Source: Mesorhizobium loti (GTDB taxonomy: Bacteria; Pseudomonadota; Alphaproteobacteria; Rhizobiales; Rhizobiaceae). From it: a stretch of 64,000 bases of DNA. The position numbers and the translations under genes were made by a program. Under the pieces are notes generated by a model. That model saw nothing but the letters and a program-made list of their open reading frames with translations. It searched no databases and was not told the origin of the DNA. The DNA is taken from assembly GCF_013170705.1 (NCBI RefSeq), contig NZ_CP033334.1, positions 930,001 through 994,000 of the forward strand. Reading direction: 5' to 3'. Below are positions 28,524-33,126 of this stretch, piece by piece. Numbering within the stretch: the stretch's first letter is position 1; each line of letters begins with the position of its first letter.

Positions 28524-30329
28524 ATGAGCACGCCCCTCGACCACATCCGCAATTTCTCCATCGTCGCCCATATCGACCATGGCAAATCCACGCTTGCCGA
28601 CCGCCTGATCCAGCTGACGGGCGGGCTGGAGCTGCGCGACATGAAGGAGCAGGTGCTGGACTCGATGGATATCGAGCGCGAGCGCGGCATCACCATCAAG
28701 GCGCAGACGGTGCGGCTGAAATACCGCGCCAACAATGGCGAGGACTATATCCTCAACCTCATTGACACGCCCGGACATGTCGACTTCGCCTATGAAGTGT
28801 CGCGGTCGCTGGCCGCCTGCGAAGGCTCGCTGCTGGTGGTCGACGCTTCGCAAGGCGTCGAGGCGCAGACGCTCGCCAATGTCTACCAGGCGATCGACAA
28901 CAACCATGAGATCGTCGTGGTGCTGAACAAGGTCGACCTGCCGGCCGCCGAGCCCGAGCGCATCCGCGAGCAGGTCGAGGAGGTGATCGGCATCGACGCT
29001 TCGGGCGCCGTGCTGATCTCGGCCAAGACCGGGCTTGGCATTCCCGACGTGCTGGAGGCGATCGTCCACCAATTGCCGCCGCCGCGCGAGGGCGACGCCA
29101 CCGCGCCCTTGAAGGCGATGCTGGTCGACAGCTGGTACGACGCCTATCTCGGCGTCATCGTGCTGGTGCGCATCATCGACGGCGTCCTGAAGAAGGGCCA
29201 GACCATCCGCATGATGGGCACCGGCGCCAAATACCTGGTCGAGCGCACCGGTGTGTTCACGCCCGCCCGCATCAATGTCGACGAGCTCGGCCCCGGCGAG
29301 TTCGGCTTCTTCACCGGCTCGATCAAGGAAGTGGCCGACACGCGCGTCGGCGACACCATCACCGAGGACAAGCGCCCCACCGCGCATGCGCTGCCCGGCT
29401 TCAAGCCGGCGCAGCCGGTGGTGTTCTGCGGCCTGTTCCCGGTCGACGCCGCCGATTTCGAGGATCTGCGCGCCGCCGTCGGCAAATTGCGCCTCAACGA
29501 CGCTTCTTTCTCTTATGAGATGGAAACCTCGGCCGCGCTCGGCTTCGGCTATCGCTGCGGCTTCCTGGGCCTCTTGCATCTGGAAATCATCCAGGAGCGG
29601 CTGGAGCGTGAGTTCAACCTCGACCTGATCGCCACCGCGCCATCGGTCGTCTACCGGCTGCTCCTCAATGACGGCTCGGTGAAGGAACTGCACAATCCGG
29701 CCGACATGCCCGACGTGGTCAAGATCTCGGCGATCGAGGAGCCGTGGATCCGCGCCACGATCCTGACCCCCGACGACTATCTCGGCGGCATATTGAAACT
29801 CTGCCAGGACCGGCGCGGCATCCAGGCCGACCTGTCCTACGTGGGAAAACGCGCCATGCTGACCTACGACCTGCCGCTCAATGAAGTGGTGTTCGACTTC
29901 TATGACCGGCTGAAGTCGATCTCCAAGGGCTACGCCTCGTTCGACTATCACCTCACCGACTACCGCGAGGGCGACCTGGTGAAAATGTCGATCCTGGTCA
30001 ATGAGGAGCCGGTCGACGCGCTGTCCATGCTGGTGCACCGCACGGCGGCGGAAAAGCGCGGAAGGCAGATGTGCGAGAAGCTGAAGGAGCTCATCCCGCA
30101 CCACCTGTTCAAGATCCCGATCCAGGCCGCCATCGGCGGCAAGGTCATCGCCCGCGAAACCATCTCGGCGCTGCGCAAGGACGTGACCGCCAAGTGCTAC
30201 GGCGGCGACGTGAGCCGCAAGCGCAAGCTGCTGGACAAGCAGAAAGAAGGCAAGAAGCGGATGCGCCAGTTCGGCAAGGTGGATATCCCGCAGGAGGCGT
30301 TTATCCAGGCGCTGAAGATGGGGGATTGA
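28524..30329 (+). CDS. lepA: elongation factor 4 (back-translocating GTPase LepA)
   Basis: 601 residues, standard for LepA. GTPase motifs AHIDHGKST (15-23), DTPGHVDF, and NKVD, then EF-G-like domains and the LepA-specific C-terminus ([48 protein letters not shown]). The enzyme acts on stalled or mis-translocated ribosomes. The 5' neighbour is divergent. Immediately 3' the composition falls sharply: the A+T-rich cassette begins about 100 bp after this stop. Confidence 0.97.
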
Positions 30330-30436
30330 GCGGATTGTACCTCATAATCGCTCTTGCAGACCGCGATGTTTCTGGACAGCCGTGTGTTCGACTCACTGGA
30401 GTCAGAAACGAGCTGCTCTGAGGTGACTTCACGAAA

Positions 30437-31861
30437 TTAGGTCAGCAAATCGCGATAGAGCCGGAATAGTTTGTCCCTTATACCTTCGTCATTTAAGATC
30501 GATTTGGCCTCTAGCATCTCCATCAAATCCTTGTCGGTAAGTGCTATGATGTAACCCTGCCCCCGAGTCGCTGCGTCCTTCAATCGCTTTTTAAGTATAT
30601 CTCTGTCGTCTATGTCCCGACATGTTATAATTCCGAAATACCCCCGATTCCTATCAAAACGACCGAGTAGTTGATCTATCTCTTGATTGTGGATATCATT
30701 ACTGTAATTTTTGCACTCTACAATCACTGTGTTCGCATGGGTAACGTTGTCGTCCCGACGCTGAGCAAAAAAACCACTGTCAGCGGAATTGGTGAAGACT
30801 ATGTCAATCCGCTTACGCCCATCGTGAATCTCCCATTCTTTGTGAGGCTGCGTGAGATCCGGGTAAAAGAGTGCCGTTAGCGCGCCAAGGACCAGATTTT
30901 GATAGTCGGTCGCTCCTTGAGCTCCACTGGGTATTTGAGAGAACAGAGGTGCCAAGCGGCCACAGATCGCCGTTACTGATGGGTCCTGATCATTAAAGAC
31001 GGCTAATGAACTGTGGCGCTTTGCCAGTTCTTTATACATCTCTAATAGCTGAGGATGAGCTAATACCATGTCGGCAATATAGTTCTTTGATGGGGGGTTT
31101 TCTGATCGAACATCCTTTTTTAGTATGCGTTTTTCGGACTTAACAGCTTGAACGAGTGCGCTATTCGCTTTTACTGTCTCTGCGATCAAAAAATCAGTAA
31201 TCTGTTTGTTATAAAACTCTTGGGAATTTAGTGACAGATTTCTCCGCACTATATACTTTGGTACTAGAATAACTGGTTCGCCATCTATCCTTGGTAAATT
31301 GGTCGGTTGGCTTACCCAGTTTTTTCTACTTATGTCCCACCCGGGAGGTCCTGAGAGATATAATACCGGAACCCCAAGCAAGTCGCATTGCTCTTGGGTG
31401 TATTCAATAAGAAGATGGCGAATTACATTAGTTGTCAGATCGGAGATTTTGTCTCTGTCTATGCCTGGTACGTACAGCGCGACCTCAGAAAGGTCCGAAA
31501 GCAAACCAGACCTGTATGCCGAACTTCCTAGAATTGCACTAATTAATTGGCTCGCCTGCCCTGAGCCAACTCCAAGGCCCTGCGGCCGGCCGCTTGAAAC
31601 ACCTAAGAATGTCTCTTTTGGCTCATGAAGGTGAGACATAAGGCTTGTTGCTCTGTAGCGATCATTCGCTCTAAGCGCCGCCAAGACCTCAAGGAAGAAG
31701 GAACGAATTGCCTCCGACGCCCTCGCTGCCCATATATCATCCCTTGTCTCTATTGCGTAAGGGTCGACATATACTGGTGTATCATAATCATTGCTTACGT
31801 CGACAAAATCTAGCTCAGACTGACTCTTATTGAGATTAAAATATTCCGAGAACCTTGGCAT
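30437..31861 (-). CDS. large unknown protein with C-terminal PD-(D/E)XK nuclease-like domain
   Basis: 474 residues from the ATG at 31861 (a longer frame to 31954 gives an unlikely leader). N-terminal part (SQSELDFVDVSNDYDTPVYVDPYAIE and onward, to about residue 330) is not recognised. The last about 140 residues look like a restriction-endonuclease fold: RIDIVF with Asp353, then IVECKNY giving Glu382 and Lys384, then LLGRFDRNRGYFGIITCR. The DNA is clearly A+T-richer than its surroundings (31081-31140 has 24 of 60 G+C; 29041-29100 in lepA has 43 of 60), so the gene is probably acquired. It is the second gene of a two-gene unit. A defence role is possible but unproven. Confidence 0.7.
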   Translation of the reverse strand: MPRFSEYFNLNKSQSELDFVDVSNDYDTPVYVDPYAIETRDDIWAARASEAIRSFFLEVLAALRANDRYRATSLMSHLHEPKETFLGVSSGRPQGLGVGSGQASQLISAILGSSAYRSGLLSDLSEVALYVPGIDRDKISDLTTNVIRHLLIEYTQEQCDLLGVPVLYLSGPPGWDISRKNWVSQPTNLPRIDGEPVILVPKYIVRRNLSLNSQEFYNKQITDFLIAETVKANSALVQAVKSEKRILKKDVRSENPPSKNYIADMVLAHPQLLEMYKELAKRHSSLAVFNDQDPSVTAICGRLAPLFSQIPSGAQGATDYQNLVLGALTALFYPDLTQPHKEWEIHDGRKRIDIVFTNSADSGFFAQRRDDNVTHANTVIVECKNYSNDIHNQEIDQLLGRFDRNRGYFGIITCRDIDDRDILKKRLKDAATRGQGYIIALTDKDLMEMLEAKSILNDEGIRDKLFRLYRDLLT

Positions 31862-31913
31862 TCTATACCTTTGGCTTTGTCGCAATATACGGGGCGCAAA
31901 GCCGCATATTTCG

Positions 31914-32405
31914 CTATAGGGATTGGGATCCACGTTGCTGCGCCAACTTCTCAAGCGCTTCTTTGAGCGTTGCCTCTTTGGACAGGCCTAGTGGCTTCAC
32001 ATCATCAAGTAACTTTCGTACGGACTCTTTGTCATCATTACGAACTCGCGGTTGTGACCGTCGTTCGAGCCAATCTGCTAGCTCTCCGATGGTGACCAGG
32101 TTTCGGAGCTTGCGTTCTTCAGCTCGCTTGTGCTTCTTCGACTGTCGTTGAGTAACGATTACCGATGGAACGCCGGAGTAATAGCCGAACAAGTCAGGCC
32201 CTTCTACGATGCCTGACGTTTGGGTTCTTCCGATCTCGTTTATTAGGCGTCCAAGCGCCATGTTCTCCAAGGCGAAAGCACTTTCATTGATTGCCTTGGG
32301 GTAACGCTGACGTAATGCCCGAATTACTTGATCTGATGAAAATGACCTGTCTTGGCCGATTTCGGCGGCGACTTCTCGTATTCTATTTCGAAGCTCCAGA
32401 AACAT
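31914..32405 (-). CDS. small unknown partner protein of the A+T-rich cassette
   Basis: 163 residues from ATG 32405, which has AAGGAGG five to six bases upstream (a strong site). Helical and charged; residues about 10-60 (EVAAEIGQDRSFSSDQVIRALRQRYP) could form a winged helix, the middle reads DLFGYYSGVPSVIVTQ, and the tail is Lys/Glu-rich. No family is recognised. The stop lies 52 bp before the start of the nuclease-like gene on the same strand, so they form one unit. A promoter candidate is at 32491-32519. Confidence 0.65.
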   Translation of the reverse strand: MFLELRNRIREVAAEIGQDRSFSSDQVIRALRQRYPKAINESAFALENMALGRLINEIGRTQTSGIVEGPDLFGYYSGVPSVIVTQRQSKKHKRAEERKLRNLVTIGELADWLERRSQPRVRNDDKESVRKLLDDVKPLGLSKEATLKEALEKLAQQRGSQSL

Positions 32406-32490
32406 AGAACCTCCTTGTGAATCATGAGCGTAACCACCGCCGCCCAACAAACGGCAGAATCGAAGATTACTATAGCGCTCATCTGATCGG

Positions 32491-32519
32491 ATTAGCGGCG
32501 AGTCCTCTCTAGGCGTCAA
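32491..32519 (-). promoter_or_regulatory. candidate promoter of the A+T-rich cassette
   Basis: On the minus strand TTGACG (32519-32514) and GCTAAT (32496-32491) are 17 bp apart, a sigma-70-like layout, about 85 bp before the start codon at 32405. The -10 is weak at its first two bases. Confidence 0.35.
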
Positions 32520-32879
32520 GCATTATGCTGATGATTTTGGTTTGTGCCGTAACTTATGCACTGTGCATGCCAAAACGCAGCCCGGCCAGCCGTAGCTTCT
32601 TTTCGCAGCAATAGTGATCTTCGGCTCCGTGCTGGCCCCGACAACAGCCCTTCAACAGCGCCTGGGTCTGAAGTACTCTCCCCGCAGCTTGGGGTAGACA
32701 TCACACGCGCGCCACATTAGGCACCATCGCCCCTCCTGGCCCCGCCACGGAGCGCCTTCGGCCTTGCCGGCACCTTCGTCACCAGCGCGCCGCTGCGCGA
32801 ACGCTGTGGACGATCGGCGGCGCGGCGCTCGTGGTCGCCACCCGCGCTGCTAACGATGAAATACCAGCGGCTGGGCCTC
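32520..32879. other. intergenic stretch beyond the cassette
   Basis: From the cassette promoter to the family B repeat. It holds a perfect palindrome ATGCAC-T-GTGCAT at 32556-32568. Composition returns to G+C-rich at about 32700. No gene is convincing and no integrase or tRNA end is seen. Confidence 0.4.
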
Positions 32880-33109
32880 CACCTTCCCCCCTTGTGGGGG
32901 AAGGTGGATCGGCGCGCCAGCGCCGAGACGGATGAGGGGTGTTCCAGCGGAGTGAGGCGGTAGAAAGGATTGGGCGCTTACAAGCGCTTGGTTCTGCGAT
33001 GCTGCGATCTGTCACGCACCCCTCATCCGTCTTGCCGCTTCGCGGCAATCCACCGCCCTGGGCGAGTCACGGGCCTCGCCCGCCCTTCGGGCCCCACAAG
33101 GGGAGAAGG
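32880..33109. repeat. intergenic inverted repeat (family B)
   Basis: CACCTTCCCCCCTTGTGGGGGAAGGTGG at the left, CACCCCTCATCCGTCTTGCCGCTTCGCGGCAATCC in the middle and GCCCCACAAGGGGAGAAGG at the right; GACGGATGAGGGGTG pairs with CACCCCTCATCCGTC. About 70 bp (GGTGGATCGGCGCG to GGAGTGAGGCG) is almost identical to 62051-62112. Confidence 0.75.
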
Positions 33110-33126
33110 CAAGAAACGTCGGCGCC

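Follow-up and report, generated by a model that had tools for sequence, protein, structure and literature searches.

What is a pair of A+T-rich genes doing between lepA and an unrelated transport gene in Mesorhizobium loti, and do the two constitute, as the initial annotation proposed, an undescribed defence module built around a PD-(D/E)XK nuclease-like protein? The genes lie within a 64,000-nucleotide stretch of the chromosome that was analysed here as a whole (the window), and the features to which we refer are listed below.

28524..30329, plus strand: lepA, left border of the hotspot (lepA matches in congeners)
30334..32675, no strand: A+T-rich insert, 2342 bp long, which forms the cargo at the lepA 3' hotspot (from blastn with the flanks of 20 congeners)
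30437..31861, minus strand: large gene, 474 aa, with an N-terminal recognition-like domain (about residues 1-283) and a C-terminal Mrr/PD-(D/E)XK-like domain (PADLOC PDC-M36A, PDLC04597, E 4.4e-44; PHROGs phrog_27295, E 3.4e-95)
31013..31861, minus strand: N-terminal domain of the large protein, residues 1-283 (three plasmid proteins align by hhalign with probability 100 and E 4.7e-63; tblastn to plasmids)
30440..30964, minus strand: C-terminal nuclease-like domain, residues 300-474 (D353, E382 and K384 in 77/77 aligned; Mrr_cat in 21/84 scanned)
30803-30805, minus strand: D353 codon, catalytic-type residue of the large gene
30716-30718, minus strand: E382 codon, catalytic-type residue of the large gene
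30710-30712, minus strand: K384 codon, catalytic-type residue of the large gene
31914..32405, minus strand: small gene, 163 aa, a possible control or accessory protein; rare (distant relatives in Agrobacterium/Rhizobium plasmid defence islands)
32676..32876, plus strand: conserved block at the right border, apparently what is left of a 170-aa gene (blastn of congener flanks)

The lepA 3' site and its insert

Both minus-strand reading frames are present as first described, with 163 and 474 codons and a gap of 52 bp between them; each starts with ATG, preceded in the small gene by a perfect AGGAGG and in the large gene by AAAGG 6 nt upstream. The base counts behind the description of an A+T-rich cassette are exact on recounting (24/60 G+C in a segment of the insert and 43/60 in one of lepA), and the GC content of the insert is 0.478 as compared to 0.643 across the window, with the nine lowest-GC 1-kb windows (taken in 250-bp steps) all overlapping 30334-32675. 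At third codon positions the GC content is 0.45 and 0.49 for the insert genes, compared with 0.89 for lepA and 0.86 for the transport gene. These two genes are the only contents of the insert, with lepA and the transport gene as their neighbours. A promoter and terminator scan of the region gave results no better than those with shuffled sequences, and no direct repeat was found at the insert borders. The region lies between the two halves of an imperfect 23-nt pair (83%; 30245-30267 and 33104-33126), and the end of lepA has an 18-nt imperfect inverted match with 32648-32665, both of them short pairs of the kind that often arise by chance.

The border block to the right of the insert (32676-32876) corresponds to a 170-aa gene that is open in several congeners and apparently shortened in the window. 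Beyond it, at 32880-33109, are palindromic elements of the form CACCTTCCCCC...GGGGGAAGGTG, whose inverted arms are at 32882-32899/33092-33109 and 32919-32941/33017-33039; they have matches in many of the congener flanks, resembling a genus-wide repeat, and this exact pattern has a single occurrence in the window.

A lepA match is present in 24 congeners (G001-G024), and we compared the 3' flanks of 20 of them (without G006, G007, G013 and G024) to the window by blastn (E 1e-5) over lengths of 2.8-5.9 kb. Similarity to the window stops at 30325-30333, around the lepA stop codon, in all 20 flanks, and it restarts at 32676-32760 in 15 of them, in which the stretch between lepA and the right border ranges from 378 to 3,873 bp. 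None of the 20 flanks has a blastn match to the insert, which was thus not inherited at the lepA site by those congeners. Because the flank similarity breaks off and restarts, the lengths differ, and the insert is unmatched, we regard this as a variable cargo site. The lepA 3' stretch (30330-32876 in the window; loci L186-L205) contains different, mostly low-GC genes in most of the congeners compared, and a search for the large protein in 60 other genomes, 36 of them of the genus, found nothing beyond an N-terminal stretch with 29% identity in a single congener.

We have also examined what else the site holds. Thirty-one cargo ORFs from 16 of the 20 congeners, picked by eye and mostly of low GC, were scanned against PADLOC and Pfam, and 20 of these were scanned individually against PADLOC. 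Among the PADLOC matches listed, which comprise 25 of 149 families, strong ones occur in the cargo of five of the 16 scanned congeners (a raw count without a random-locus control): a type II restriction enzyme and methyltransferase in G021, PD-Lambda-5 A and B in G004, LmuB in G003, PDC-M57 and a SIR2-type protein in G002, and a methyltransferase with a DpdB/DndB-like protein in G023. The cargo ORFs of G008 and G015 have weak PADLOC matches only, eight of the 20 individually scanned ORFs have no PADLOC match at 1e-3, and single Pfam matches among the 31 include NACHT, SocA/Panacea, Fic and ABC-3C MC5. The lepA 3' site is a compact chromosomal hotspot at which small cassettes are swapped within the genus, several of them defence genes, and it could be mined for others.

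The large protein, its relatives and their settings

The claim that the large gene encodes a nuclease-like protein rested on an Asp353 and Glu382-x-Lys384 pattern, and these residues are indeed at those positions. The large protein itself matches the Pfam Mrr_cat profile only below the curated cut-off (E 0.0096; 16.5 bits, cut-off 21), and among 84 proteins scanned 21 have an Mrr_cat match (E <= 0.05, best 7.4e-10), although the 84 include seven from outside the family proper, so that up to seven of the 21 matches may be to non-family proteins. Searches of solved structures with the large protein gave chance-level matches only. A match to phrog_27295 is present in 11 of 385 genomes of the class and matches, many of them partial, in 17 of 398 genomes of the phylum (the window genome included in each count), and a species collection yielded 232 relatives, of which the best 80 were kept. 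When the window protein is aligned with 76 of these 80 (L050, L051, L094 and L098 were left out as truncated or broken at the match), D353, E382, K384, N385, Y386, D396, Q397 and R401 are invariant in all 77 members. The invariance of E382 and K384 is in part selected, since the patterns with which the collection was scanned covered ECKNY (E-x-K-N-Y) and PEIDQ, but D353, R349 and R401 fall outside these patterns and were hence not selected. Seven relatives that came from searches independent of the motif, six from a protein search and one (L044) from a PHROG search, keep D353, E382 and K384. Conservation extends to the N-terminal domain, in which D27, P34, E80, G87, D137, S140, D141 and P201 are found in 76 or 77 of the 77 members. 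The large gene is a horizontally moving one that encodes a probable Mrr/PD-(D/E)XK nuclease of a candidate defence family.

In a tree of these proteins the window protein groups with copies from Thalassospira (66% identity), Bradyrhizobium and Ancylobacter, and the rows span 14 named phylum-level groups as labelled in their records, several being binned genomes. The gene is lower in GC than its flanks in 77 of the 82 loci with enough flank, and lies more than 5 points below them in 41 of the 43 loci where the flank GC is at least 0.55. A tblastn search of 50,697 phage records with the large protein gave no match, nor did one using a viral-contig relative as query, although the family is represented among the PHROGs by phrog_27295. 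Among viral contigs, 18 carry family members when the 77-row alignment is the query; a plain protein scan found none there.

The N-terminal domain of about 280 residues has no Pfam match of note but is homologous to entire plasmid proteins of 286-315 aa, with stand-alone versions on plasmids of Acinetobacter, Bacillus and Pseudarthrobacter (L018, L019 and L021); of these N-terminal-only relatives one adjoins a rep gene and one follows recombinase genes. A Paenibacillus plasmid protein has only the C-terminal domain in common with the large protein. Because proteins with either part alone exist, the two domains are separable. In two Bradyrhizobium loci (L047, 9465-10526; L050, 9457-10530), the protein encoded downstream contains two nuclease-like stretches, of which the second is homologous to the C-terminal domain of the large protein (hhalign E 1.1e-11), as if the effector domain had been duplicated within the operon. 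This protein was considered as a general partner and rejected, since it forms no cluster of at least three loci.

Mrr and McrBC bind modified bases in phage DNA and cut it, and the large protein could act in such a type IV-like manner, its N-terminal domain binding modified phage bases and its Mrr-like domain cutting. The Mrr_cat matches are consistent with this, as are the absence of a methyltransferase at the site and the lack of a conserved partner (see below). Against it, the N-terminal domain has no Pfam match to a known modified-base reader, and its nuclease-free homologues on plasmids are not obviously explained by a pure DNA reader. We consider this a doubtful though real possibility and note that it is a narrower form of the stand-alone nuclease explanation, which we prefer and to which we return below.

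The settings in which relatives are found bear on whether the function is one of defence. The family is present in four of 5,426 E. coli genomes (blastn, two queries), the four copies having 37-40% identity to the large protein and three of them residing in satellite-like elements. Two are in P4-like satellites, where they have psu/delta-like genes on one side, the integrase on the other and an IS next to them. A third forms the end of a different satellite-like element, which carries an Ogr/Delta gene; the remaining copy is in an island after tRNA-Gly, with a 154-aa HTH gene 51 bp upstream that is unrelated to the small gene of the window (hhalign probability 0.2). The psu-int locus is described as an antiviral hotspot of P4-like satellites in the passages of PMC9122126 that concern it. 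Relatives also co-locate with defence genes elsewhere. One (L042; G633 783524-784891) has an N6_Mtase gene (781141-782013, E 4.2e-74) on one side and Methylase_S stretches (785004-787436, E 6.3e-18) on the other, which places it inside a type I restriction locus, and it adjoins a protein with an Mrr_cat match; another is followed by an AIPR/AbiU gene (L039), and a TIR gene is near a third (L044). Many relatives are flanked by ordinary-looking genes, outside defence islands, and the 66% identical Thalassospira copy is one, its neighbours being a pntB-like gene (by sequence reading) and a 195-aa ORF of host-like GC.

A nuclease of DNA repair, recombination or element maintenance, serving the mobile element that carries it, could show some of the same features: recombinase-like genes are near several relatives (by sequence reading), the N-terminal-only plasmid proteins keep company with rep and recombinase genes, and the family is on those 18 virus-like contigs. 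Such a non-defence role seems unlikely, given that family members occupy the place of antiviral cargo in P4-like satellites and that the lepA slot has several defence occupants.

The small gene and the search for a partner

The initial annotation saw the small gene as the sensor or control half of a conserved two-gene module, with a possible winged helix. The case for the latter is weak: the match is to DUF7669, whose function is not known, at E = 0.0016 and below the curated cut-off, and two relatives of the small gene (L224 and L225) are not among the DUF7669 matches at E <= 0.05. The conserved module is not borne out. No relative of the small gene is found in any of 86 family loci, whether by phmmer against neighbouring ORFs (to E 10) or in six frames (to E 1), and the two genes are therefore not conserved together, an outcome that the initial annotation had itself listed as refuting its proposal; these loci correspond to 85 distinct places (L044 and L073 being on one contig), and several flanks end at contig ends. 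It is likewise without relatives in the phage records and in the 397 other phylum genomes searched. Relatives are present in three plasmid records, with 25-26% identity over 90-91% (E 3e-4 to 9e-3), and a profile search of 367 genomes gave one further weak match (E 3.4e-4). The Agrobacterium and Rhizobium plasmid copies (L224, 4989-5498; L225, 4983-5495) are distant relatives of about 170 aa, located one gene downstream of HTH and ImmA/IrrE genes and flanked by CBASS-type and Hachiman-type genes. The small gene thus encodes a protein that is rare and belongs to defence neighbourhoods, and it is not itself a fixed partner of the large gene.

Does the large gene have another partner? Clustering of 1,316 neighbouring ORFs from the 86 loci (blastp 1e-6, naive ORF calls) gave no cluster with more than three adjacent members, the commonest adjacent one being MazG-like by sequence reading (three adjacent, five loci). 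In 33 of 90 loci (the 86 and the four in E. coli), an ORF of 80 aa or longer on the same strand lies no more than 160 bp upstream, and the small gene has no relative among these ORFs (lowest E by phmmer 0.069). When both sides are considered, 76 of 89 loci are usable, 13 having been dropped for contig ends or unclear frames, and 45 of the 76 have no same-strand ORF of at least 100 aa within 100 bp on either side (naive calls); for a distance of 160 bp the number is 32 of 76. This count led us to weaken a reading of the gene as usually alone to one in which it has no fixed partner, and the single-gene habit of the family is only partial. Since the family is without a fixed partner, the small gene beside it in the window is a local extra, best seen as a locus-specific accessory or control protein outside the core.

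Could the pair nonetheless be a toxin-antitoxin-like or abortive system, in which the small protein restrains the nuclease until a phage lifts the restraint and the cell dies? Its position 52 bp upstream with a strong ribosome site would suit such a role, as would the association of its distant relatives with HTH and ImmA/IrrE genes, in islands that also contain CBASS-type and Hachiman-type genes. A required antitoxin would be retained, however, so the absence of the small gene from the flanks of all 86 family loci, the 66% identical Thalassospira copy included, counts against the pair, although a different antitoxin may serve at each locus. We consider this account improbable.

Proposed function and known systems

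With moderate confidence, we propose that the large gene encodes a stand-alone anti-phage (anti-mobile-DNA) nuclease that was acquired horizontally into the lepA hotspot, with the small gene a local accessory. Defence is favoured because the lepA site has other defence cargo, because copies reside in P4-like satellites of E. coli, and because one relative lies among type I restriction genes. The large protein is best read as a single-polypeptide restriction factor with putative N-terminal recognition and Mrr-type cleavage. The gene would arrive by horizontal transfer, directly after lepA; the N-terminal 280 or so residues would recognise an invader through its DNA, a DNA modification or a product of infection; and the C-terminal Mrr-type PD-(D/E)XK domain would then cut DNA, with D353, E382 and K384 as its predicted metal site. 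No methyltransferase gene adjoins the large gene, so that self and non-self would be told apart in recognition, by trigger or by modification, and self DNA would be spared at that step without a cognate methylase. The upstream 163-aa protein may have an accessory or control role specific to this locus.

A more ambitious and decidedly tentative reading is that the family constitutes an autonomous one-protein form of immunity, in which a new sensing domain is joined to an Mrr-type nuclease across 14 phylum-level groups and P4-like satellites, the lone sensing domain on plasmids perhaps acting as a decoy or in control of the nuclease. If so, this defence by a single protein would be widespread, and PADLOC-DB would represent it mainly by a candidate of several parts that does not fit it. 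The copies in two E. coli satellites offer test cases with which its function could be checked quickly.

That candidate is PDC-M36, which consists of A and B subunits and whose A subunit is homologous to the large protein over its full length: hhalign of the family to PDC-M36A gives probability 100 and E 2.2e-40 over 439 columns, with the D and E-x-K residues aligned. On plasmids of Methylobacterium and Leptolyngbya, PDC-M36A is followed downstream by PDC-M36B genes. The PDC-M36A proteins with this arrangement are 22-24% identical to the window family and sit on a very long branch from it. A profile of four B proteins finds no PDC-M36B (E <= 1) among 13,100 six-frame segments from the 86 window-clade loci, with the positive cases L016 and L017 scoring to 9.4e-53. 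PDC-M36B was also not found in the window genome or in seven other family genomes, in a search that gave no match in any genome and so had no positive case to compare with. The MazG-like cluster described above was considered as PDC-M36B and rejected, two members having been scanned and neither being PDC-M36B. The large gene might be what remains of a PDC-M36 system that has lost its B subunits, as the full-length homology to PDC-M36A would permit, but with PDC-M36B in none of the 86 loci its absence is a trait of the whole long-branch clade and not a recent loss, and we disfavour this explanation as very unlikely. The long branch and the absence of PDC-M36B place the window family as a sister clade without the second subunit, and the large protein is, as judged by its sequence, a distant relative of PDC-M36A.

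How far does the description as undescribed stand? We found no paper on PDC-M36, DUF8370 or the DUF7669 of the small gene among the papers searched, which agrees with it, but the family has a distant relative, PDC-M36A, in PADLOC-DB, and one E. coli copy has the name DUF8370 in RefSeq. The PDC families are unpublished candidates according to the part of PMC11811056 that deals with them. The RefSeq 'DUF8370 family protein' WP_247142595.1 is a full-length E. coli relative with the same catalytic-type residues; DUF8370 is a bare name, and it is attached to only one of the four E. coli copies.

Other comparisons set the large protein apart more clearly. Family members of Shedu match SduA/DUF4263, whereas the window protein has no match to the PADLOC SduA profile at E <= 1; a weak SduA match (2.9e-4) is seen in L038, one of three full-length relatives scanned. 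Classical restriction-modification systems have a cognate methyltransferase, whereas the insert consists of two genes with none beside the nuclease, and the initial assessment that this is not a classical pair holds for the site itself. With the Mrr-type (type IV) endonucleases it has in common the C-terminal D...E-x-K domain, represented by the Pfam Mrr_cat matches, and it differs from them by the N-terminal domain of about 280 residues. The locus itself can be compared with the P4/P2 hotspots: the window site is chromosomal, follows lepA, and has no integrase or satellite genes within its insert, but here too, as in the hotspots portrayed in those parts of PMC9122126, small cassettes are exchanged between two conserved genes.
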